Of a stretch of 38,093 nt of DNA, positions 10,321 to 34,603 are shown in pieces. How positions within the stretch are numbered: position 1 is the stretch's first letter; every line of letters begins with the position of its first letter. Under the pieces are notes generated by a model that saw only the letters and a program-made list of their open reading frames with translations, was not told the DNA's origin and searched no databases. Source of the stretch: a virus. Position numbers and translations under genes: made by a program. The stretch spans positions 1 to 38,093 of IMG/VR virus record IMGVR_UViG_3300042879_002873; one strand, written 5' to 3'.

Positions 10321-11790
10321 TCACCACCGCGAAGCGCGCGGTGCGGTTTTCCACAAGTCGTTGAAGGTGGCGGTGTTTGACGCGCCAACCGATACAATCG
10401 CGCCCGGCTGATGCACGGGCTTTTGCCGCACCCATGGGCGGCTCATGCAAGCGTAACGCGCCTCGTCCGGCGCGTGATCCTCGCCGTCGCTATCCACATC
10501 TTCCAGGCGGTCCGGGTCATGCTGCAACGCCGGCAATGTGCGGATTAGGTCGCGGCATGTGCTGAAAATCAGCAAGCCCGGCCCTGTTTCATCACCGCGC
10601 AGCCTGGCCCGAACCTGATCCCACCCGCCAAGCGCGCCTTGACGTGACACGCGGGCATTGTCCGCCGGACGGAAGAACACTTTGGCCGACCGCGCCATGC
10701 GCTCGCCGATGCTTGGGCCGCCGTCACTGCTGAAGATGGCCGGGTCTGCCACGCCGTGAAGGCCGTTCTCAGGCTTAGGGTCGCCCGCCTCACGTTGCGC
10801 GATGCCCTGCGCCACTTCCTCGGCGGTCATCCGCAAGCCTTCATTCGGCTTGCCGGTGCTGCCATACCATTCCCGGTAACGCACAAGCGCACCACGCGGG
10901 ATGTCTTGCAACTCGCCGTCAGACACGGCCCACCAGCCGACGCTGAAAGGCCTAGCGCTGCCCCAGTCCAAAGACCGGAACCGAAACCAATGCTCAGGCA
11001 ATTCGCGCGGCGCGATGACGTGCCGGCCCATGTCGAACTCGGGAAAGAAAGCTCCGGCGATGACGTTCCAGTCGCCCTCTAGCCAAGCCCTGACCAATTC
11101 AGGGGAACCCGATTGCATGATGCTGGCCACGTATTCAGCGCCAACGTGCTTGTTATCGGAAACGCGCGACGGGATATAAACTCTATCGCGGTTCAAGTCC
11201 TTGCCCGTGAAAGGGCATTTGAAGGTTTCAACAATGACCTTCCAGCCCATCGGAGCCGGGTCTATGTAGCGCGCCTTGATCCATTGATGTCCCGGCCCGC
11301 CGGGATTGCCCGTCAGGCGCATTCGGCAGGGAACGCCCGCACCGCTTCGCAGCGTGGCAAACAGTTTCAGGATCGGCGCCGGGCTTGGGAAGTTGCCCGC
11401 TTCCTCGACATAAACCCGCGTGTAACTGTGGCCCTGGTAGCTTTCGGCGTCCGCATCGCGTTCAAGATAGGCAAAATTCAATCGCCCGCCGCCAGGCATG
11501 ATGATACGCATGGGAACAACGGTAAATTGTGCCCCAATCATAGCAAACAGGGCCTTAGCGCGCTCGAAAGTTTCCAGCAATTCCGTCCGAGAACGGCGGA
11601 CTATCAGCCCAATGGCATGTTTGCCGTAGCGATCCGCATGAACGGCCCATTCGCCCAACATGCCGTCAGTCTTGCCGCCGCCGCGCGCCCCGCCAAAAAA
11701 AACCTCAAAGACCGGGCAGGTCAAAAGCGCCGTTTGCGGGCCTGCCTGGGGGCGCCAGACTACGCTTGGGGCTGATGCTGTTTCGCCCAT
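10321..11790 (-). CDS. terL: Terminase large subunit
   Basis: A 489-residue DNA-packaging motor. The ATPase domain has Walker A GGARGGGKT (residues 33-41) and Walker B followed by catalytic Glu in VYVEEAGNF (about 127-134). The C-terminal nuclease domain begins with LDWGSARPFSVGWW (first acidic residue near 273), and a second acidic position is in GVADPAIFS. Such enzymes pump DNA through the portal and cut it at the end of packaging. It overlaps the small subunit by 31 bp. Circular permutation of the window is in keeping with headful packaging. Confidence 0.93.
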   Translation of the reverse strand: MGETASAPSVVWRPQAGPQTALLTCPVFEVFFGGARGGGKTDGMLGEWAVHADRYGKHAIGLIVRRSRTELLETFERAKALFAMIGAQFTVVPMRIIMPGGGRLNFAYLERDADAESYQGHSYTRVYVEEAGNFPSPAPILKLFATLRSGAGVPCRMRLTGNPGGPGHQWIKARYIDPAPMGWKVIVETFKCPFTGKDLNRDRVYIPSRVSDNKHVGAEYVASIMQSGSPELVRAWLEGDWNVIAGAFFPEFDMGRHVIAPRELPEHWFRFRSLDWGSARPFSVGWWAVSDGELQDIPRGALVRYREWYGSTGKPNEGLRMTAEEVAQGIAQREAGDPKPENGLHGVADPAIFSSDGGPSIGERMARSAKVFFRPADNARVSRQGALGGWDQVRARLRGDETGPGLLIFSTCRDLIRTLPALQHDPDRLEDVDSDGEDHAPDEARYACMSRPWVRQKPVHQPGAIVSVGASNTATFNDLWKTAPRASRW

Positions 11791-13722: not shown

Positions 13723-13924
13723 GGTTTTTCGTCCTGTTTGGGGTCGTTGCCTGCAACCGCGCCGCAAGGGCTTCAAACCGCGCTACAAGCCCTTCCAGGT
13801 ATTCCCGGCCATCCTTGTCCAGCTTCGGGTGCTGCAAGCCGTCCTGGGCCGCTCTGGCGCGGCGCAAACAGTCCTCGGCAAGCGCATCGTCGGCATGGGC
13901 GCGCGCCACTTGGGCAGGGGTCAT
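13715..13924 (-). CDS. Hypothetical helical protein, 69 aa
   Basis: A 69-residue helical protein (MTPAQVARAHADDALAEDCL) with a charged body (KLDKDGREYLEGLVARFEAL). I chose ATG 13924 because it overlaps the upstream stop as ATGA, the rule in this operon. ATG 13933 adds three residues. It looks like a small coiled-coil protein. No family is recognised. Confidence 0.6.
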   Translation of the reverse strand: MTPAQVARAHADDALAEDCLRRARAAQDGLQHPKLDKDGREYLEGLVARFEALAARLQATTPNRTKNHD

Positions 13925-14382
13925 TTCCGCCATTGGCTTGCCCCCTTGTTGCCGCGCGGGATCAGCCTGGAGGCAATGGCGGAGGTCAGCCCTGCCGGCG
14001 GGTGCGGGTAATCGCCGTTCATCCCGGCTGCGACCCATGCCGCATGTTCCGCGTCCCACCGGTCGAAGGCCGCCTTGATGCTGGCCGGGGTCGGGTAATT
14101 GCGGGCGGGGTCAAAATTGCCCTCTGCGGTTTCGTTTCGGTTTGTGTTTTGTCTGGCTTGGCCGGGACGGGACCGGGACATGTCCCGCCCCGTGACACCG
14201 GGACAAAATCCCCCCCCCTTTAGGGGGGGGGGGATAGAATGTCCCGGTATGTGTCCCTCGCCGCCGGTCAAATTGTCCCGATTTGTCCCGATTTGTCCCG
14301 GCATGTCCCGGTCACTTTTGGGGGCAAATAGTGATAGTTGATTGCGCGCGATTACCATTTCAGACTGCCCAAACCGTGTCAT
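13921..14382 (-). CDS. Hypothetical protein spanning the repeat array, 153 aa
   Basis: A 153-residue frame from ATG 14382, or 145 from ATG 14358. The N-terminal half translates the GGGACA/TGTCCC repeats and the C/G homopolymer hairpin (PPPLKGGG) and looks unconstrained. The C-terminal half (about residues 90-153, RNYPTPASIKAAFDRWDAEH) looks like real protein. Its stop overlaps the next start by ATGA, which supports translation. The G/C homopolymer could cause slippage, so the exact frame over the first half is uncertain. Confidence 0.5.
   Translation of the reverse strand: MTRFGQSEMVIARNQLSLFAPKSDRDMPGQIGTNRDNLTGGEGHIPGHSIPPPLKGGGFCPGVTGRDMSRSRPGQARQNTNRNETAEGNFDPARNYPTPASIKAAFDRWDAEHAAWVAAGMNGDYPHPPAGLTSAIASRLIPRGNKGASQWRK
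14163..14310. repeat. Iteron-like array of GGGACA / TGTCCC repeats
   Basis: There are nine exact or near copies of CGGGACA or its complement in about 150 bp. They include a perfect 14-bp palindrome CGGGACATGTCCCG (14174-14187), an inverted copy at 14198-14205, and copies at 14239-14247 and 14252-14258. Four consecutive 10-bp units of the form AWTTGTCCCG lie at 14271-14310. Ten-base spacing puts these last sites on one face of the helix. This is the architecture of a replication-origin iteron set or a cooperative operator. It lies just downstream of the primase gene. Confidence 0.75.
14208..14235. repeat. C9-TTTA-G11 homopolymer hairpin
   Basis: ATC followed by C-run (9 Cs), TTTA, and an 11-G run then AT forms a very strong hairpin inside the repeat array. 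The G-run is a potential slippage site and could affect polymerase passage. Sequencing error in run length is possible. Confidence 0.6.
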
Positions 14383-16366
14383 GATGCACCCCTATTTGGC
14401 TCTTTTGGGCAAGCCCATCGGCTGCCCGGTTAAACGCTTTTTTCTTCGCCTCATGGCTATCAGCGGTTGAGCGCGCGAAGAATGTCTCACGCCATGCGTG
14501 CTTGCTGGTCGCGGCGGTTACGCCCGCTTGGGCGGCCTGGTAAGGCACCGGGCAGGGCTGTGTGGCCATCACGTCATGCAGGATGCGTAGCGCCATGGCC
14601 TCGCCGTTGGTGAGGCTCACGCGCGGCTTGGCGGGGCGGTCATCAGTAGGTTCCACCACGCAAGACGTGACCGGCTTTCCGCGATGATTTAGGCCCAGTT
14701 CCACACGCTTGAGGGTAAAGCCAAACACGCCGTCAATCTCCAGTTCGCGTTGCTTGGTGACGCGGGCGATGGATGGGCTGTCATTGTCGGCGCGGGAAAT
14801 CTCGATCTCGGTATCGGTTGCGGCTCGCAGCAGGCTATGGCCTCGGGCGCCTTGGGCTTGGTCTTTGCCTGAATGGTGTATCCAGGCCACATGCGCGCCG
14901 GTTGCTTGCCGGATGCGGTCGGAATTGGCAACCAAGGCGCCCATATCTTCTGGCGAATTTTCGTTGCCGCCGGCCATGGCGCGGCTCAGGGTATCCATGA
15001 CCACCAGCCCGACCGGGATCGCCATGCGGGCAGCGGCTTCAGCAATGGCGTCAATCAGTCGGGACGTGTCCGCGTTGGGGTCAAGCAGGTTCAACGCCAC
15101 CGGGATAATGGCGAAGGGAATTTCCTGCCCTGCCAGGCCGCACGTCAGGGCAAAGGCTGCCACGCGGTTGGCGATGCCGTGCGCGCCTTCCATGGCGCAG
15201 TAGATCACGCCGGCGCGATCCACCTCGCGCCCGCGCCATTCCAGCCCAAGCGCCACATGCAGCGCCAAGTCGGCCATGAAGAACGTCTTGCCGCAATTAG
15301 ATGGCCCGTAGGTGACTGACATCGCGGCCTTGATAAGCAGGCCTTCAATGAAATCCTCAGATTTCAGGGCTGGCTTCACGTCCTGGAAATAGATCAGCGG
15401 CAGGCCGGTCGGCTTAATGTCGGGGGCTACCTTCTCAGGCTCTAGGCCTATGTCCGGCTCCGGTTCCGCGATCCAATGGTCCGGCGGCGCTTCTCTGGGC
15501 GGCGGCTCCGGGCGCGTCTCGCGGTATTCCTCCACGATGCGCCGGACTAAGCGCGGCGGGGCTTCGCGGGGCTTGGCCATGCCTGCGCGGAATGCGCCGG
15601 CAAGGGTTTTCTGCGCTGCTGGGTAATCCTCGCAGCGGTGCCGGATGCCGGCCAAGGCCGATGCCAGCGCGGCGAAGGCTGGGCCCTCAATCAATTCGCC
15701 CGCCGCGACTAGACCGCCAATGCTAAACGCCGCGCGGTTTAGGGTGTCATGCTTGGCGCCGTCCGGGGCGCTTAGGATGGCCTGGCATTCATTGTCCAAG
15801 GCGGTCATGCCGTAGCGCGTGCCTTCGTTGGCTTGGCGAGGCGCGGGTGCCGGGCGCGGGGCTTCTGGCGCCTTGGGCGGATCTATCAGGTCCAGCAACC
15901 ATGCCGGCGCGGGCGCGGGCGCCATGGCTTCATCCACCAGATAGCCAGGACTTGGGGGCGCGATAATGTAGCCGCCGTTGCCGCGCACATCCACGCCAGC
16001 CGCGATCCGGCCCGCGCTGTTGCGAATGATCCTGCCCTGGGGCATGGCGAAAAGCAGATGAACCCCGCCGGATCGTGTCTTGTGCCGGCGCGTGTCCGGT
16101 AGCCTGTGCTGGTTTGCTGCCAGCCATTCCAGCCCGCCGCCGCCGTTCTTCACGTCAAGGTCAAGGCAGAAGAACCCGGACGTGTCCCCGGTTGGGACGC
16201 CGATCATGGCCGCGCCTGGGCTAGCGAACTGGCGCTGTATCTCTACCGCGTCATGCGTGGCGTCGTTGAACCCGTGTTGCGTGACGGGGCGCTTGTCATG
16301 CCCGCAGGCAAAGACCGGCAGGCGCATTTCCTGGGAAAGCCATAGGGCGCTTTGGGTCAGGCTCAT
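14360..16366 (-). CDS. Primase-polymerase / AAA+ helicase (replication protein)
   Basis: A 668-residue protein from ATG 16366, chosen because it overlaps the upstream stop as ATGA. The N-terminal domain (1-165) is a bifunctional primase-polymerase fold: DLDVK (metal Asp at 69 and 71), GGVHLLF (His near 103) and GVDVRGNGGYIIAPP. A linker follows, then a RepA/DnaB-like ATPase domain with Walker A GPSNCGKT (354-361), Walker B VVMDTLSRA (Asp near 458) and WIHHSGKD (about 495-502). It would prime and unwind DNA at the phage origin. A repeat array suited to initiator binding lies immediately downstream. Confidence 0.88.
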   Translation of the reverse strand: MSLTQSALWLSQEMRLPVFACGHDKRPVTQHGFNDATHDAVEIQRQFASPGAAMIGVPTGDTSGFFCLDLDVKNGGGGLEWLAANQHRLPDTRRHKTRSGGVHLLFAMPQGRIIRNSAGRIAAGVDVRGNGGYIIAPPSPGYLVDEAMAPAPAPAWLLDLIDPPKAPEAPRPAPAPRQANEGTRYGMTALDNECQAILSAPDGAKHDTLNRAAFSIGGLVAAGELIEGPAFAALASALAGIRHRCEDYPAAQKTLAGAFRAGMAKPREAPPRLVRRIVEEYRETRPEPPPREAPPDHWIAEPEPDIGLEPEKVAPDIKPTGLPLIYFQDVKPALKSEDFIEGLLIKAAMSVTYGPSNCGKTFFMADLALHVALGLEWRGREVDRAGVIYCAMEGAHGIANRVAAFALTCGLAGQEIPFAIIPVALNLLDPNADTSRLIDAIAEAAARMAIPVGLVVMDTLSRAMAGGNENSPEDMGALVANSDRIRQATGAHVAWIHHSGKDQAQGARGHSLLRAATDTEIEISRADNDSPSIARVTKQRELEIDGVFGFTLKRVELGLNHRGKPVTSCVVEPTDDRPAKPRVSLTNGEAMALRILHDVMATQPCPVPYQAAQAGVTAATSKHAWRETFFARSTADSHEAKKKAFNRAADGLAQKSQIGVHHDTVWAV

Positions 16367-16518
16367 TTCTTGGCGCCTTTCCGCTTCCATGTCTCAAAAT
16401 GCGCCTCGCGCTCGGCGTCCTCTACCGGGTCAGGCACGCGCTCGGCAAGGTTGCGGGCGAAGCGCTGGTAAAAGGCAAGGCGCTCTTCTAGAATGGATGG
16501 GACGGGTTCAGGGGTCAC
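16363..16518 (-). CDS. Small protein between nuclease and primase, 51 aa
   Basis: A 51-residue frame with a GTG start at 16518 that overlaps the upstream stop (GTGA). Its own stop overlaps the primase ATG (ATGA). It reads VTPEPVPSILEERLAFYQRF in its first 20 codons and has a basic C-terminus (TWKRKGAKK). The double overlap and exact fit in the gap are good evidence of translation. It may serve chiefly to couple translation of the primase, or bind nucleic acid. No family is recognised. Confidence 0.6.
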   Translation of the reverse strand: MTPEPVPSILEERLAFYQRFARNLAERVPDPVEDAEREAHFETWKRKGAKK

Positions 16519-16904
16519 TTAATCCACCCCCACTCCCTAAGCGCCGCCAGCGCGTCATCCACGCTCCGCACCACGGCGACCGGAAACCCGTCCGCCCGTA
16601 GCGCCGCGATTTCTTCCTGTTGCGCCGGCGTCAATCGCCCGGTTGCAGACTTGACTTCGAGAAACCCCACCAAAGGCCAGCCGGGCAGGCGCGGCATCCA
16701 CACACGCAAGTCAGGATCACCCGCAACCATGCCCAGGCGCTTCAACCGCATGGCGCTGGCAATGCTGCGCTTGCCGTCATTGGCCGCGTGACGGCTGCGA
16801 ATGCCGTGCAAAACCAGTGCTGCCCGGATGGCAATGTGAATTGCGTCTTCACTAGGCTGGGGCGCCTTTGGCTTGCGGGCACGTTCTGGCGCGGCGCGGG
16901 TCAT
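16515..16904 (-). CDS. VRR-NUC family nuclease, 129 aa
   Basis: A 129-residue nuclease from ATG 16904 (TGATG overlap with the upstream gene). The VRR-NUC pattern is clear: basic RLKRLGMVAGDPDLRVW (catalytic Asp near 65), then FLEVKSATGRLTPAQQEEIA (Glu 83, Lys 85, Gln 95), and VAVVRSVDDALAAL at the end. These are PD-(D/E)xK-fold enzymes, often resolving branched DNA such as Holliday junctions. In this operon it probably resolves replication or recombination intermediates before packaging. Confidence 0.88.
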   Translation of the reverse strand: MTRAAPERARKPKAPQPSEDAIHIAIRAALVLHGIRSRHAANDGKRSIASAMRLKRLGMVAGDPDLRVWMPRLPGWPLVGFLEVKSATGRLTPAQQEEIAALRADGFPVAVVRSVDDALAALREWGWIK

Positions 16905-17095
16905 CAACCAAACACCACAAGCAAAAAGATAATCAGCAGCTGCACAACAATCACGCACCGCAAGAAGCTAATAACATCAGATCGGAGCTTTCTGTTTTTG
17001 TCTTCAAGTTGCATTGCCATATCCATTGCTGCCAATTGCGCAAAGCCGGTTTCCATGTGGTAATATGGTGTATAGGGGGCTTGTTTTTCGCTCAT
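16904..17095 (-). CDS. Small C-terminal-anchored membrane protein, 63 aa
   Basis: A 63-residue protein. The N-terminal 40 residues are polar (MSEKQAPYTPYYHMETGFAQ). A single membrane segment lies at the C-terminus (about 44-62, FLRCVIVVQLLIIFLLVVFG), giving a tail-anchored topology. It overlaps both neighbours. It could tether replication proteins to the membrane or act on the host envelope. I do not recognise the family. Confidence 0.65.
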   Translation of the reverse strand: MSEKQAPYTPYYHMETGFAQLAAMDMAMQLEDKNRKLRSDVISFLRCVIVVQLLIIFLLVVFG

Positions 17096-17265
17096 GGTTC
17101 ATCCCTCACATGCTGATAGCTTTCGCCGTTGCGGATGCTGTAAATCACCTTTGGCGTGACGCCGTAATACTGCGCCAGCACCGGCCCCGGAATTGGATTG
17201 ACGCGAATTTCCCGCACGTCATCATCGGATAGCTTGCGGGCGCGCTTGAAGACGGCGCGGGTCAT
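17092..17265 (-). CDS. Small HTH DNA-binding protein, 57 aa
   Basis: A 57-residue protein from ATG 17265, overlapping neighbours by ATGA on both sides. It reads KLSDDDVREIRVNPIPGPVL then AQYYGVTPKVIYSIRNGESY, the compact HTH pattern of small phage regulators that resemble resolvase or HNH-associated DNA-binding modules (helix, A-x-x-YGV turn, recognition helix with I-x-x-IRNG). It is likely a transcription factor or accessory DNA-binding protein. It is small but convincing. Confidence 0.7.
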   Translation of the reverse strand: MTRAVFKRARKLSDDDVREIRVNPIPGPVLAQYYGVTPKVIYSIRNGESYQHVRDEP

Positions 17266-17417
17266 TGGCCAAGCACCACATCAAGGCGCCGCGACGCCTC
17301 CGTAAGCTCTTGCTCGGCAATCATCAAGCGCTCAAGCAATCGCAGCATATCCTCTTTCGCCACCATAACCACGGCAGGGCCGGCTTCCACCAGCGCGCGG
17401 TATTCGTCTGTTGTCAT
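17262..17417 (-). CDS. Hypothetical coiled-coil protein, 51 aa
   Basis: A 51-residue protein from ATG 17417 with a strong GGAGGAG ribosome site. It begins MTTDEYRALVEAGPAVVMVA. The rest is a predicted helix (LLERLMIAEQELTEASRRLD). Starts and stops overlap neighbours. No function is evident. Confidence 0.6.
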   Translation of the reverse strand: MTTDEYRALVEAGPAVVMVAKEDMLRLLERLMIAEQELTEASRRLDVVLGQ

Positions 17418-17599
17418 TGGCTCCTCCTCCGATATTCCGCCTGCGCCACACACTCGGCGCCATGCAAAAACTGCCCTTCGCGCAGCCAAAACCGCGCCAT
17501 GGCCTCGGCTTGCGCGCATGTGCGGGCAATGACCACGTCCTGATAGCAGGGCGCCTCGCCACCGCAAACCAGGAACAGGAATATGAAGGCGGGCTTCAT
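17414..17599 (-). CDS. Small exported Cys-containing protein, 61 aa
   Basis: A 61-residue protein with a short signal-like N-terminus (MKPAFIFLFLVCGGEAPCYQ). The LVCGG could be read as a lipobox-like site, with cleavage before Cys 12. The remaining residues include three more Cys (18, 28, 50) and are helical. It may be secreted to the periplasm or lipid-anchored and act in exclusion of other phages, but that is inference. It overlaps the methyltransferase stop (ATGA). Confidence 0.6.
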   Translation of the reverse strand: MKPAFIFLFLVCGGEAPCYQDVVIARTCAQAEAMARFWLREGQFLHGAECVAQAEYRRRSQ

Positions 17600-18600
17600 G
17601 ATGCTACCTGAAACAAACCAATCGCGTTATCATCCCGCATGTCTTGATTTACCTCGGAAATGTTTTTCACGGCTTGGCGGAAATAGCTTTCCTTTAATTC
17701 AACGCCAATTGCCCGCCGCCCTTGATACAAGGCACCATATGCCTCAGATCCCACACCCATAAACGGGGTCAACACCACGTCCGACGGATTGCTCCAAAGC
17801 TGAACGGCGCGATGAATAACGTCAAGTTGGAGCGGGTGTACGTGCTTTTCATCATCAGGATCACGCGCATCCTTATATGATAAAATCGCCTTGCATTTTC
17901 TGCCATCGCCGGCAACTTGCGAGTTAGCGGTGCGAATGTCCATCCAAACCGATGAGGCATATTGCCGCCAAATCCAATGACTGAATTTGTTTTGCGATTG
18001 CTCCGGTTCATCTCGATATTGCCACAAATCGGCTGGCACTTGGTTTGCTCCGTAGTATTCTTTTAATCCGCCGCCTTCATGCGTGATTGCTTCCGTATTT
18101 TCGCCGCGCTTGCGGAAAATCAAAAGGTAATCCGCCGCCGCAATGGTGGCGCCAGAGCTATCCTTGACAAGCGCCTTATGCTGAAGGTGCTTCAATCTGG
18201 TTCTTATGGCAACCGCCAAAGGCTCCTTCCAAATACAAACGCGACCTTGAAAATCGAACCCGTGCCGCGCGTGCAATTCAATCAGTCGCCCCGGCAAATC
18301 ATGGTACCCTGTTTTCTGCCCAGGGTTTGGGATGTCCATGCAATGCACGGCATTTATGCGTCCAGGCTTAGTCACACGCGAAAGCTGGCGCACCAAAAAT
18401 TCATAATGAGCATAAAAGTCATCATAGGTGGCATTATTGCTCATATCTCGGTCGTCGCTGCTGTAGTTATACAGCCCGCAAAAAGGCGGGGAATAAACCG
18501 ACAATCCAACAGAATTTGCCGGAAGATCGGAAACGACCTCAACGCAATCGCCATTATACAGCGCATAGCGCTCGGTTATCACTTGATCTATTAAAGCCAT
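17596..18600 (-). CDS. DNA methyltransferase (beta-class, SPPF motif)
   Basis: A 334-residue S-adenosylmethionine-dependent DNA methyltransferase. The catalytic motif IV is SPPF (37-40), typical of N4-cytosine or some N6-adenine enzymes. Motif X (KHVHPLQLDVIHRAVQLWS, about 252-270) and motif I (TPFMGVGS, 278-285, then GRRAIGVEL) come at the C-terminus, so the order IV-TRD-X-I is beta-class. No cognate endonuclease is nearby. It overlaps the SNF2-like helicase by 10 bp, so the two are made together. Likely roles are protection of phage DNA or marking DNA for regulation. Confidence 0.88.
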   Translation of the reverse strand: MALIDQVITERYALYNGDCVEVVSDLPANSVGLSVYSPPFCGLYNYSSDDRDMSNNATYDDFYAHYEFLVRQLSRVTKPGRINAVHCMDIPNPGQKTGYHDLPGRLIELHARHGFDFQGRVCIWKEPLAVAIRTRLKHLQHKALVKDSSGATIAAADYLLIFRKRGENTEAITHEGGGLKEYYGANQVPADLWQYRDEPEQSQNKFSHWIWRQYASSVWMDIRTANSQVAGDGRKCKAILSYKDARDPDDEKHVHPLQLDVIHRAVQLWSNPSDVVLTPFMGVGSEAYGALYQGRRAIGVELKESYFRQAVKNISEVNQDMRDDNAIGLFQVAS

Positions 18601-19958
18601 TTCGGTAACTCCTGATTTTTGTTGTGTTGTTTGAACCTTTCAAGGTTCATCGCATCGCGCATATGATCCACCATTACGCGAAACATTTTGTCGGTAGCCT
18701 CTGCCTTTTCCTTTCGGCTTGAGGCAACGCCGCGAAGGCTTTCGGTGCTGATATTGTGAATGGTGACCGGCTTCTTTTGCCCAAAACGCCACATACGCCG
18801 AACCGCCTGATAATACTGCTCAAAGCTATAGTCGGTGAAATAAGTGGCGGTTGATGCGTGCTGCCAATTGACGCCAAGCGCTGCGATTTTTGGCTTAGTG
18901 ACCAAGTGACGAATTTGGCCACTACGAAACGCCTTAAATTTCTCTTCTTTTTCTTCATCGCTGTCGCTGCCTGAAAGATTGACCGCACCCCGAACCATGC
19001 CGCAAATTGTGTCAGCCTCTTCGTTAAGATGGCACCACGATACACCGCACTCGGACGCTGATAAAATCTCAGCCGCCTTTTCGCACCGATCCCGAACAGT
19101 TGCCTTGCGTTCCTCTCGTTGCTCAGTCAATCCCTTGGCAGGAACCGGAAACAGCATCCCAGGCAACGGCGGGCTTTTGATTTCGTGATCAATCTCAATC
19201 AGCCCAGGCAAGATCCAATCGCGATCCTGAAAACCTAAATCGGAAGGCTTGCGAATAGCCCGCGCCCATGATGCGACCCAACGCCAAAAGTCTCGCTCGC
19301 CATGCGGCTTAAAACGCCACTTGGACCCAATAAAACCAGGGTGCAAGCTGTCCTCATCATTTTTGAAAAACTGCCCCAGCATGTCCATATAACCCAAATA
19401 TCCCAACGCCTCGGAAGATGTTCCAAGCTCTATGTAATCGTTGGGCGAAGGTGTTGCGGTAAACATACCGCGATACCGGCATCGCCGCATAAACTCCGTG
19501 ATCTGCGCCTTGAATGCGCCGTCAAAGTTTTTGAGAATGCTGCTTTCGTCGCAAATCACGCCGCCAAAAAGGTCAGGATCGAAATGCTTCAAACGCTCAT
19601 AGTTGGTTGTGATAATTCCGGCGCCATGCGGTATCTTGCCGTCAATTGACCGGAAAGCGCGCATACCAAACTTTTCTGCCTCCTCCACTGTTTGAGAAGA
19701 AACCGAAAGCGGCGCCATAATCAATACGGGCTTGTTTGTGTGGCGATGCACATTTTCAGCAAAGACAAGTTGCATTAACGTCTTGCCCAAGCCACAATCC
19801 GCAAAGGTTGCCCCCCTGCCTTGATAACAAGCCCAGTCAACCAAAAAACTTTGGAAATCATAACAATGCGGGTTTTCGTAAACGGGTTTAAACCCGTGCT
19901 GCCCGCCTATTTGCGATTTCGCAATCACAAACTCAGCATAAGCCGTGTCTAACGGCAT
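18591..19958 (-). CDS. SNF2-type DEAD-like helicase
   Basis: A 455-residue superfamily 2 ATPase. It has Walker A ADCGLGKT (53-60), motif Ia IMAPLSV, motif II CDESS (136-140), motif III FTATPSPND (166-173), and a C-terminal motif VI QAVRRMWRFGQKKPV with the arginine finger. The N-terminal YDFQSFLVDWACYQGRGATF is the Q-motif-like entry. It begins 31 bases after the GcrA-like gene with a GGAGG ribosome site, and overlaps the methyltransferase. Such helicase-methyltransferase pairs recur in phages. Its substrate is not known to me. It may remodel DNA for the methyltransferase or act in replication. Confidence 0.85.
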   Translation of the reverse strand: MPLDTAYAEFVIAKSQIGGQHGFKPVYENPHCYDFQSFLVDWACYQGRGATFADCGLGKTLMQLVFAENVHRHTNKPVLIMAPLSVSSQTVEEAEKFGMRAFRSIDGKIPHGAGIITTNYERLKHFDPDLFGGVICDESSILKNFDGAFKAQITEFMRRCRYRGMFTATPSPNDYIELGTSSEALGYLGYMDMLGQFFKNDEDSLHPGFIGSKWRFKPHGERDFWRWVASWARAIRKPSDLGFQDRDWILPGLIEIDHEIKSPPLPGMLFPVPAKGLTEQREERKATVRDRCEKAAEILSASECGVSWCHLNEEADTICGMVRGAVNLSGSDSDEEKEEKFKAFRSGQIRHLVTKPKIAALGVNWQHASTATYFTDYSFEQYYQAVRRMWRFGQKKPVTIHNISTESLRGVASSRKEKAEATDKMFRVMVDHMRDAMNLERFKQHNKNQELPKWL

Positions 19959-22534: not shown

Positions 22535-23380
22535 ATGAGCATTACCATCCACAAGACCGCGCTGGAGCCGGCGACGCTGACGGAAGCCATGCGGTTTGCC
22601 GAAGTGCTTGCCGGGTCCACCATGGTCCCGCGCGATTTCCAGGGCAAGCCTGCCAATGTGCTTGTCGCCTTGCAATGGGGCCGGGAAGTCGGCCTTGGCC
22701 CGCTGCAAGCCTTGCAGAACATCGCCGTGATCAATGGCCGCCCCTCGATCTGGGGCGATAGCGCTATGGCGCTGGTGCGGGCGCATCCTGACTGCGCCAG
22801 CATCCAGGAAGGTGTGGACGGCGAAGGCGAGGCCCGGCATGGCTGGTGCGAAGTCACGCGCCGGGGCGAACAGCCGCAGCGCCGCACGTTCTCCATTGCC
22901 GACGCCAAGCGCGCCGGGCTTTGGGGCAAGTCTGGCCCATGGACGCAATACCCTGACCGGATGCTGCAAATGCGGGCGCGGGGGTTTGCTATTCGTGACG
23001 TGTTCCCGGATGCGTTGCGTGGCGTTCTGACACGCGAGGAAGCGGAGGACATGCCGCCCGAACCGCGTCATGTGGAAAACCTCGCCGATGCCCCTGCACC
23101 CGCCCCAGCGCCCGCCGCACGGCCCGCAGAGGCGTCTTTGCTGCTAATTGATCCCGACGCCATGGAATGCGTTTTCACAAGCATAGAGATGTGGCTTGAT
23201 GCCGCAAGGCGCGCGTTTGCAAGGCTTGCGGGTGATCCCGTCGCATTGCGCGCCTGGGCCGATGCGAACGCCGGCGCCTTTGCCGCTGTGGGGGAACGCT
23301 ACCCCGACACGGTTGCGAAAATTGGCGCGGCCATCACGGATCGTCTGGAAAAAACTCTTGAACAGGAACCCGCAGAATGA
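22535..23380 (+). CDS. RecT-family single-strand annealing protein
   Basis: A 281-residue recombinase that anneals complementary single strands. The RecT core is seen in MVPRDFQGKPANVLVALQWG, then REVGLGPLQALQNIAVINGR, PSIWGDSAMALV, and WTQYPDRMLQMRARGFAIRD with FPDALRGV (about residues 30-165). A Pro/Ala linker (about 185-200) leads to a C-terminal helical part of unknown role. The ribosome site AAAGGA precedes the ATG. The Gp157-like gene is upstream and an SSB-tip protein downstream, a typical recombination cluster. No partner exonuclease of the RecE type is recognised. Confidence 0.88.
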   Translation: MSITIHKTALEPATLTEAMRFAEVLAGSTMVPRDFQGKPANVLVALQWGREVGLGPLQALQNIAVINGRPSIWGDSAMALVRAHPDCASIQEGVDGEGEARHGWCEVTRRGEQPQRRTFSIADAKRAGLWGKSGPWTQYPDRMLQMRARGFAIRDVFPDALRGVLTREEAEDMPPEPRHVENLADAPAPAPAPAARPAEASLLLIDPDAMECVFTSIEMWLDAARRAFARLAGDPVALRAWADANAGAFAAVGERYPDTVAKIGAAITDRLEKTLEQEPAE

Positions 23381-33757: not shown

Positions 33758-34603
33758 TTAATTCCTTGCCGCTGGCTGACCAGGCGCTGGCTGGCGCCCC
33801 ATACCGCCATAGGTTGCGTATTGCGCCCCACCACCAAGCGCAGCCGATCCCAGGCTATACATGCCCGCAAGCTGCGTCTGATATGCTTGGTTCCGCGCGT
33901 TAAACGCGTTGTTCAAAGACGCCTGCCGCATCGCCTCGGCCTGCATGTAATCGGTCGGCGCCACGCTGGTCTGCGGCGTGTTCACAAAGCTAGGCGCCTG
34001 CACTTGCTGACCGGTCAGCAGCGCCGCCGCCTCGTTCAAGGGGCTGGCGCGCTCGGTCAGGATTTCATTGATTGCCTGCCCGCGCCCCTGCAACAACAAT
34101 TGGTTGTAGGCGTCATTCTCGGCCTCGCCAATGCTGCGCATTGCCACGTCATAGGCTTGCGTGCCAGGCATTAAGCCTTGCTGGCGCAGGCGCGTGTCCA
34201 TAGCGTTGCGTCGTTCTGCCAAAACCGGGTTAAGCCGCCGGCTGCCCAGTTCCATCAAACGGCCTTCAACGGCTTCGTTGTTCAGGCTCAGCGGCGTTGC
34301 CAGTCTTTCCCGCACGGACTGAAGCTGTTGCACCCCGGCTTGTCCGTAGATGTCTTGCGCCTGCCGCGACAAGTCCAAGGCGCGTTGTTCTTCCGGCGCC
34401 AAGGATTGCACCGCTTCAAAGCGCGGCGTGCCGTCTGCCCAAGTGCCGATCTGGTTGAATTGCAAACTGCCGTAGGGGTCGCGCTGGTTGATGGCGTTTA
34501 GGCCAAATTGCGTGATGGCCGTTTCGCGGTTTGCCTTTGCAGCCGCCGCCGTTGTCGCAGCCGGATCGGGCGCGGCAGGCGCCTTTGGTGCTTTCTTGCC
34601 CAT
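33758..34603 (-). CDS. Internal virion protein / DNA-ejection component, 281 aa
   Basis: A 281-residue protein from ATG 34603 (AAAGGA upstream). It begins MGKKAPKAPAAPDPAATTAA. The sequence INQRDPYGSLQFNQIGTWAD and the helical repeats with LDLSRQAQDIYGQAGVQQLQ are typical of the first ejection protein in podovirus operons. The C-terminal 40 residues are Gly/Gln/Ala/Tyr-rich. It is encoded between the GNAT-like gene and the two larger ejection proteins. It may be equivalent to P22 gp7 by position. Confidence 0.65.
   Translation of the reverse strand: MGKKAPKAPAAPDPAATTAAAAKANRETAITQFGLNAINQRDPYGSLQFNQIGTWADGTPRFEAVQSLAPEEQRALDLSRQAQDIYGQAGVQQLQSVRERLATPLSLNNEAVEGRLMELGSRRLNPVLAERRNAMDTRLRQQGLMPGTQAYDVAMRSIGEAENDAYNQLLLQGRGQAINEILTERASPLNEAAALLTGQQVQAPSFVNTPQTSVAPTDYMQAEAMRQASLNNAFNARNQAYQTQLAGMYSLGSAALGGGAQYATYGGMGRQPAPGQPAARN

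Follow-up and report, generated by a model that had tools for sequence, protein, structure and literature searches.

The iteron array and hairpin described here very probably form a phage replication origin that the adjacent primase-helicase recognises through its own C-terminal domain, and comparison of related sequences suggests that this domain and the array are exchanged as one cassette. Both lie in a 38,093-bp virus record, IMGVR_UViG_3300042879_002873, which was analysed over its whole length (the window). Comparison with relatives documents the array, its conserved position, a hairpin in which stem pairs have changed on both sides, and a repeated word that changes together with the C-terminal domain, with the boundaries of the cassette visible in the DNA.

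The array (14163..14310) carries nine exact GGGACA/TGTCCC copies on both strands, together with degenerate ones. The word occurs 17 times in the window, and nine of these occurrences fall within the 135 bp at 14175-14309 (exact copies at 14175-, 14181+, 14200-, 14240+, 14252+, 14274+, 14284+, 14294+, and 14304+). Nearest to the primase-helicase gene, four GGGACA iterons on the minus strand follow one another in exact 10-bp steps (14273..14310; 14304, 14294, 14284, and 14274)—at offsets of 53, 63, 73, and 83 from the stop codon, positions kept in almost all close relatives—and two inverted iterons make up a perfect 14-bp palindrome, CGGGACATGTCCCG (14174..14187). An exact count thus confirmed the nine copies, the 10-bp register of four, and the palindrome, all of which an earlier note on this DNA had reported. 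Among 100 dinucleotide shuffles of the window, the maximum was 2 TGTCCC copies per 135-bp stretch versus the nine in the real sequence, and the rest of the real window held at most 5 copies of any 6-mer per 150 bp versus 9 in the array. Searches of Rfam returned no match near the gathering score, and a DNA search of a phage collection found no close relative. Cumulative GC skew, proposed in the earlier note as a way to locate an origin, had no extremum at the array, either in the window itself or in any of four complete relatives, save roughly in Caenibius p1 (array at 34.4-34.5 kb, skew minimum at 33.5 kb); the skew ranges of these five sequences were mostly close to block-shuffle noise.

Mid-array we found a C/G stem-loop that was absent from the earlier note (14199..14246), in which an inner C/G stem (14208-14218 with 14224-14235) is enclosed by inverted iterons (14199-14205 with 14240-14246). 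Folded as single-strand DNA, the array region gave z = -4.3. The stem exists in two versions among relatives, with three pairs altered on both sides and pairing kept in all cells; because the two versions probably reflect one event, they support pairing and are not a tally of independent changes. Short G+C-rich hairpins with a TTTA, TAAA, or TATA loop recur in the arrays of relatives: the core CC[TTTA/TAAA/TATA]GG was present in 59 of 83 arrays, at 2.75 per kb versus 0.014 per kb elsewhere in the loci (~200-fold).

The neighboring gene (14360..16390, minus strand), our proposed initiator, encodes a 676-aa primase-helicase comprised of a Prim-Pol, a RepA-like AAA_25 helicase, and a C-terminal domain. 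That the array adjoins this gene was borne out; it lies on the gene's 3' side. Both Pfam domains were recovered in the one protein above their curated cut-offs (Prim-Pol, PF09250, E 1.5e-29; AAA_25, PF13481, E 9.1e-33), the Pfam search found neither D5_N nor DUF927, and the PHROG match was to DNA polymerase/primase. By sequence, the sole solved relative was RSF1010 RepA (1g8y), a weak match. No family match was found for the last ~100 residues, and an alignment of these C-terminal domains contained no part conserved well enough for a profile. For residues 580-676 (14363..14653, minus strand), the proposed iteron reader, an AlphaFold2 model (pLDDT 85) predicts a winged helix at the level of general fold only, with its elements in order (H16-31, H38-42, E48-50, H51-61, H67-83, E87-90, E93-96). 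Structure matches of the model included the MCM C-terminal winged helix (Z 8.6), CAP (Z 7.9), and BlaI (Z 7.6); in a Foldseek search against the PDB the best E was 0.11, with none below 0.001, and the matches listed did not include the P4 alpha domain. Other replication and recombination genes lie near the primase, encoding a VRR-NUC nuclease, a DNA methyltransferase, and an SNF2-like helicase (16515-19958, minus strand) and a RecT-like annealing protein (22535-23380, plus strand).

Similar arrays accompany most homologous loci; those compared came from phage records, plasmids, viral contigs, and bacterial genomes. Within 300 bp 3' of the gene, 90% of 84 loci had one 6-mer in at least 5 copies versus 4% of 1876 background windows, and 81% had one in at least 7 copies versus 0.6%, though these loci include many close relatives and the counts are therefore not independent. 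The repeated word varies by lineage, with ~20 words that mostly take the form NNNNACA. Above about 69% protein identity the word is CGGGACA; others are CCGGACA, GGGGACA, GGAGACA, CCAGACA, TGCAACA, CGTAACA, AGTAACA, CGTGACA, CGCAACA, TCCGACA, CATCACA, CGAAACA, CGTCACA, ACTACA, GTATAA, ATCGGGG, and TGCGGAA, and there are still others. Rhizobium phages 16-3 and RHph_X2_25, for example, carry 15-16 CGTGACA copies in the ~435-bp gap 3' of the gene. No such array was found at ~10% of homologous loci or in several distant relatives, such as BFK20 and Caulobacter GB2A. Microcystis Mae-JY30, a Polaromonas plasmid, MW202711, L064, L083, L086, and L087 also yielded none, and L084 and L088 were doubtful. 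In one locus (L081), ten GGGACA copies and a CCCCTATAGGGG hairpin lie within a 3' extension of the primase-helicase frame, ~400 to 100 bp before its stop, so that the putative origin would be translated as a protein tail. Plasmid p1 of Caenibius sp. WL (L108), a 38-kb circular phage-plasmid, has 12 TGCGGAAG copies at 34379-34550 behind an AAA ATPase gene, the only replication gene annotated on it. The earlier note had named the conservation of the repeats in relatives as a check; an array proved to be kept in this place, and the word to be replaced only together with the reader domain.

Across 56 representatives, a permutation test showed that word distance tracks the C-terminal domain when the helicase is allowed for (partial r = 0.46, p = 0.0005), and tracks the helicase far less closely when the C-terminal domain is allowed for (partial r = 0.17, p = 0.04). 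Each word was set by the most frequent 6-mer, with its orientation assigned by hand, a possible source of noise in this matrix test but not in pairs of close relatives in which the word has been swapped. Three such pairs stand out: L056 and L057, where the helicase is 99%, the N-terminal part 94%, and the C-terminal domain 18% identical (CGGGACA vs TCCGACA); L037 and L039, with helicase 100% and C-terminal domain 51% identical (TGCAACA vs CGTAACA); and the Roseobacter phages CRP-823 and CRP-831, with helicase 100% and C-terminal domain 70% identical (ACTACA vs GTATAA), the array of CRP-823 lying at about 3.2-3.35 kb. The boundaries can be followed in the DNA. Between L057 and L060, the clearest pair, identity is ~84-100% through the helicase. 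It falls to 33-46% in the stretch that starts 300 bp ahead of the stop and ends 100 bp past it, and is back at 89-93% from 200 bp past the stop. Over the array it dips to 54-57% in L037/L039 and to 43% in CRP-823/831, both of which regain >90%, and two pairs with a common word show no dip. Since the dip is limited to the domain codons and the array, both differ as one segment between conserved flanks, for which recombinational exchange of reader codons together with array would be the simplest explanation.

L078 and Caenibius p1 have a different domain type in common and, with it, the word TGCGGAA. A word is not unique to its reader: L104 and L162 have shared words but otherwise different C-terminal domains. 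CGTGACA arrays were observed directly behind unrelated primase or primase-helicase genes (L178:7107-7346, L223:5572-5968, L175:3200-3491, L210:888-1192, and L242:2221-2497), the neighbors being of Toprim/Zn-ribbon type (phrog_35358) in L178 and L223 and of DnaG/D5 type in L175; the occurrence of this word with non-homologous initiators suggests convergence or origin exchange. Comparing C-terminal residues with iteron bases column by column (376 tests, 27 representatives) gave scattered signals confounded by ancestry, in which no recognition code was found.

The association also appears when the protein is left out of the search. We looked for the tripled iteron GGGACAAATCGGGACAAATCGGGACA in 2.9 million viral contigs and found it in 31, every one of which has a C-terminal domain of the window type or the L060 type directly upstream—though in one case the contig breaks off and leaves only the last 18 residues. 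As the homologue set already contained most of these contigs, the scan shows an absence of orphan arrays and not new lineages. The corresponding TCCGACA sequence, TGTCGGAAATGTCGGAAATGTCGG, had six matches, five with a domain of the L055 type (in one of them truncated at the end of the contig). The remaining match, L162, encodes a Prim-Pol/AAA_25 protein whose C-terminal domain is a different one, similar to that of the Roseobacter phages.

In its sequence anatomy the locus is that of an iteron-type origin, with nine copies directly 3' of the gene at a conserved position, and the array may well be an active one. The initiator would be a single polypeptide that unites primase-polymerase, RepA-like hexameric helicase, and C-terminal winged helix. 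We infer from the comparisons that the winged helix binds the GGGACA iterons, presumably cooperatively, with the 10-bp phasing placing four copies on one face of the DNA. Once bound, it could assemble or load its own helicase at the array; strand opening would then expose the hairpin, a likely melting or priming element, where the Prim-Pol domain might prime. Reader codons and array adjoin one another and span ~400-500 bp in all, so recombination in the conserved flanks would swap specificity and sites together. A further idea, which we hold to be possible but on balance somewhat doubtful, is that domain and array constitute a dedicated specificity cassette, repeatedly exchanged between phages and diversified to many words because selection favours escape from competing replicons or from defences that target origins, and that the natural pairs of domain and word would suffice to work out a recognition code for this winged-helix family.

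Whether the array might be an origin or a cooperative operator had been left undecided in the earlier note. The origin half of that proposal is favored, as the word changes with the winged helix of the primase-helicase and the anatomy resembles that of tested origins downstream of initiator-helicase genes (PMC4234260, PMC7581432); the operator half is not. Under the latter, a phage repressor, or the primase-helicase as its own regulator, would bind the array, and the array would act as a cooperative operator or terminator for the genes that follow the primase. Operators typically contain repeats and palindromes, the window encodes small HTH regulators, and a weak terminator-like match spans the hairpin on the minus strand. 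However, the array sits behind the gene and not at its promoter, a search for sites of the sigma-70 type found nothing promoter-like in the region, and most relatives lack a T tail after the hairpin. The word changes in step with the primase-helicase C-terminal domain and not with a separate regulator, which also disfavors the small HTH proteins, among the candidates for a binding test in the earlier note. We consider regulation of this kind unlikely.

Joint change of word and reader would equally be expected if the primase-helicase bound the array as a copy-control, incompatibility, or partition site, with the true origin elsewhere. Phage P4 offers a precedent in crr, a further set of repeats outside the origin to which the P4 initiator also binds. 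Yet no second cluster of the array word was seen in the window or in the four complete relatives, and hence no alternative origin with the same sites, and the conserved hairpin fits a start site better; we judge this explanation very unlikely. A packaging (pac/cos) site for the terminase can be credited even less: the large-subunit gene is indeed nearby (10321-11790, ~2 kb downstream), but the word follows the primase-helicase domain, the annotated cos end of Rhizobium phage 16-3 is at least ~3.5 kb from its array, and arrays beside such primase-helicase genes also occur on plasmid and chromosome records.

The array also overlaps an open frame of 153 aa (13921..14382, minus strand) that spans it and for which no family match was found. 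The overlap is real: among 23 close relatives, all but one keep the frame open across the array. The part of the frame that follows the array (..NYPTPASIKAAFDRW..) recurs in relatives, and the frame would be a small gene overlapping the putative origin. The exception is L027, where one extra base in the poly-G stem of the hairpin interrupts the frame, either through a sequencing error or as a sign that the frame is dispensable. Despite this openness, there is next to no chance that the array is a repetitive stretch of the overlapping protein maintained by protein-level selection: the codon frame changes at each 10-bp step, iteron copies lie on both strands, distant relatives (the Rhizobium phages, L032) have the array without the frame, and in L035 the word is replaced throughout with the peptide motif after the array still there, so that the repeats are not a protein feature and, as the earlier note held, are not explained by coding needs.

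If the locus is indeed an origin read by its own initiator, an origin location can be proposed for many phages and phage-plasmids, a large group with little annotation, by the simple rule of looking directly 3' of a Prim-Pol/RepA-like helicase gene; Caenibius p1 would be well suited to show whether a plasmid can replicate from an array of this type. The natural swaps, where a short segment differs between flanks that are ~90% identical, amount to ready-made experiments on how initiator and origin change specificity together. Should selection drive the exchange, its likely causes become testable—competing related replicons, or origin-targeting nucleases such as Odn of ICP1 (PMC8263062). Systems of this kind are already known. 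The variant seen here and its natural cassette exchange are apparently undescribed; we found no description of the arrays or the exchange in the searchable literature, which covers few subscription journals.

The closest parallels come from SaPI and SCCmec elements, phage P4, the plasmids pRN1 and RSF1010, and phage lambda. The C-terminal domain of SaPI Rep, like SCCmec Cch2 a self-loading initiator helicase, recognises short iterons directly downstream of its own gene (Ubeda 2007, as cited in PMC7581432), and that of SCCmec Cch2 binds repeats directly downstream of the gene (PMC7581432). The same layout of C-terminal domain and iterons directly downstream, with co-change of the two, is found here, and binding is a candidate property; their helicases are D5-type or DUF927, whereas here AAA_25 is fused to Prim-Pol and a conserved hairpin lies inside the array. 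In P4, a single protein, alpha, combines primase and helicase with a winged helix for binding the repeats of the origin (PMC4234260). The C-terminal winged helix, here predicted as a general fold, is the point of likeness, but P4 alpha has a Toprim-type primase and an SF3/D5 helicase in place of Prim-Pol and AAA_25, and no sequence relation to it was detected for the window protein. For the archaeal plasmid pRN1, a 100-bp stem-loop directly behind the ORF904 gene (Prim-Pol, helicase, and winged helix) is needed for replication (PMC4234260). Here, too, a stem-loop immediately follows a Prim-Pol gene, a likeness of anatomy only, and the protein has a predicted winged helix at its C-terminus, with AAA_25 and iterons in contrast to the SF3 helicase and iteron-free origin of pRN1. 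In RSF1010 (IncQ), the origin has iterons and ssi hairpins recognised by the primase RepB' (PMC4234260, PMC4538821); the RepA helicase type and the combination of iterons with hairpins are alike, but RepA, RepB', and RepC are separate there, while here there is one chain and the iterons are much shorter. The origin iterons of lambda lie at or inside the initiator gene O (PMC5043065), and ori-lambda carried on a multicopy plasmid interferes with the phage (PMC4488673). The L081 array likewise lies inside a reading frame, as ori-lambda does in gene O, although O is neither helicase nor primase and, with P, loads the host DnaB. The family thus belongs to none of P4, SaPI, SCC, and pRN1, from which it differs in its helicase, nor to RSF1010, from which it differs in its single chain.
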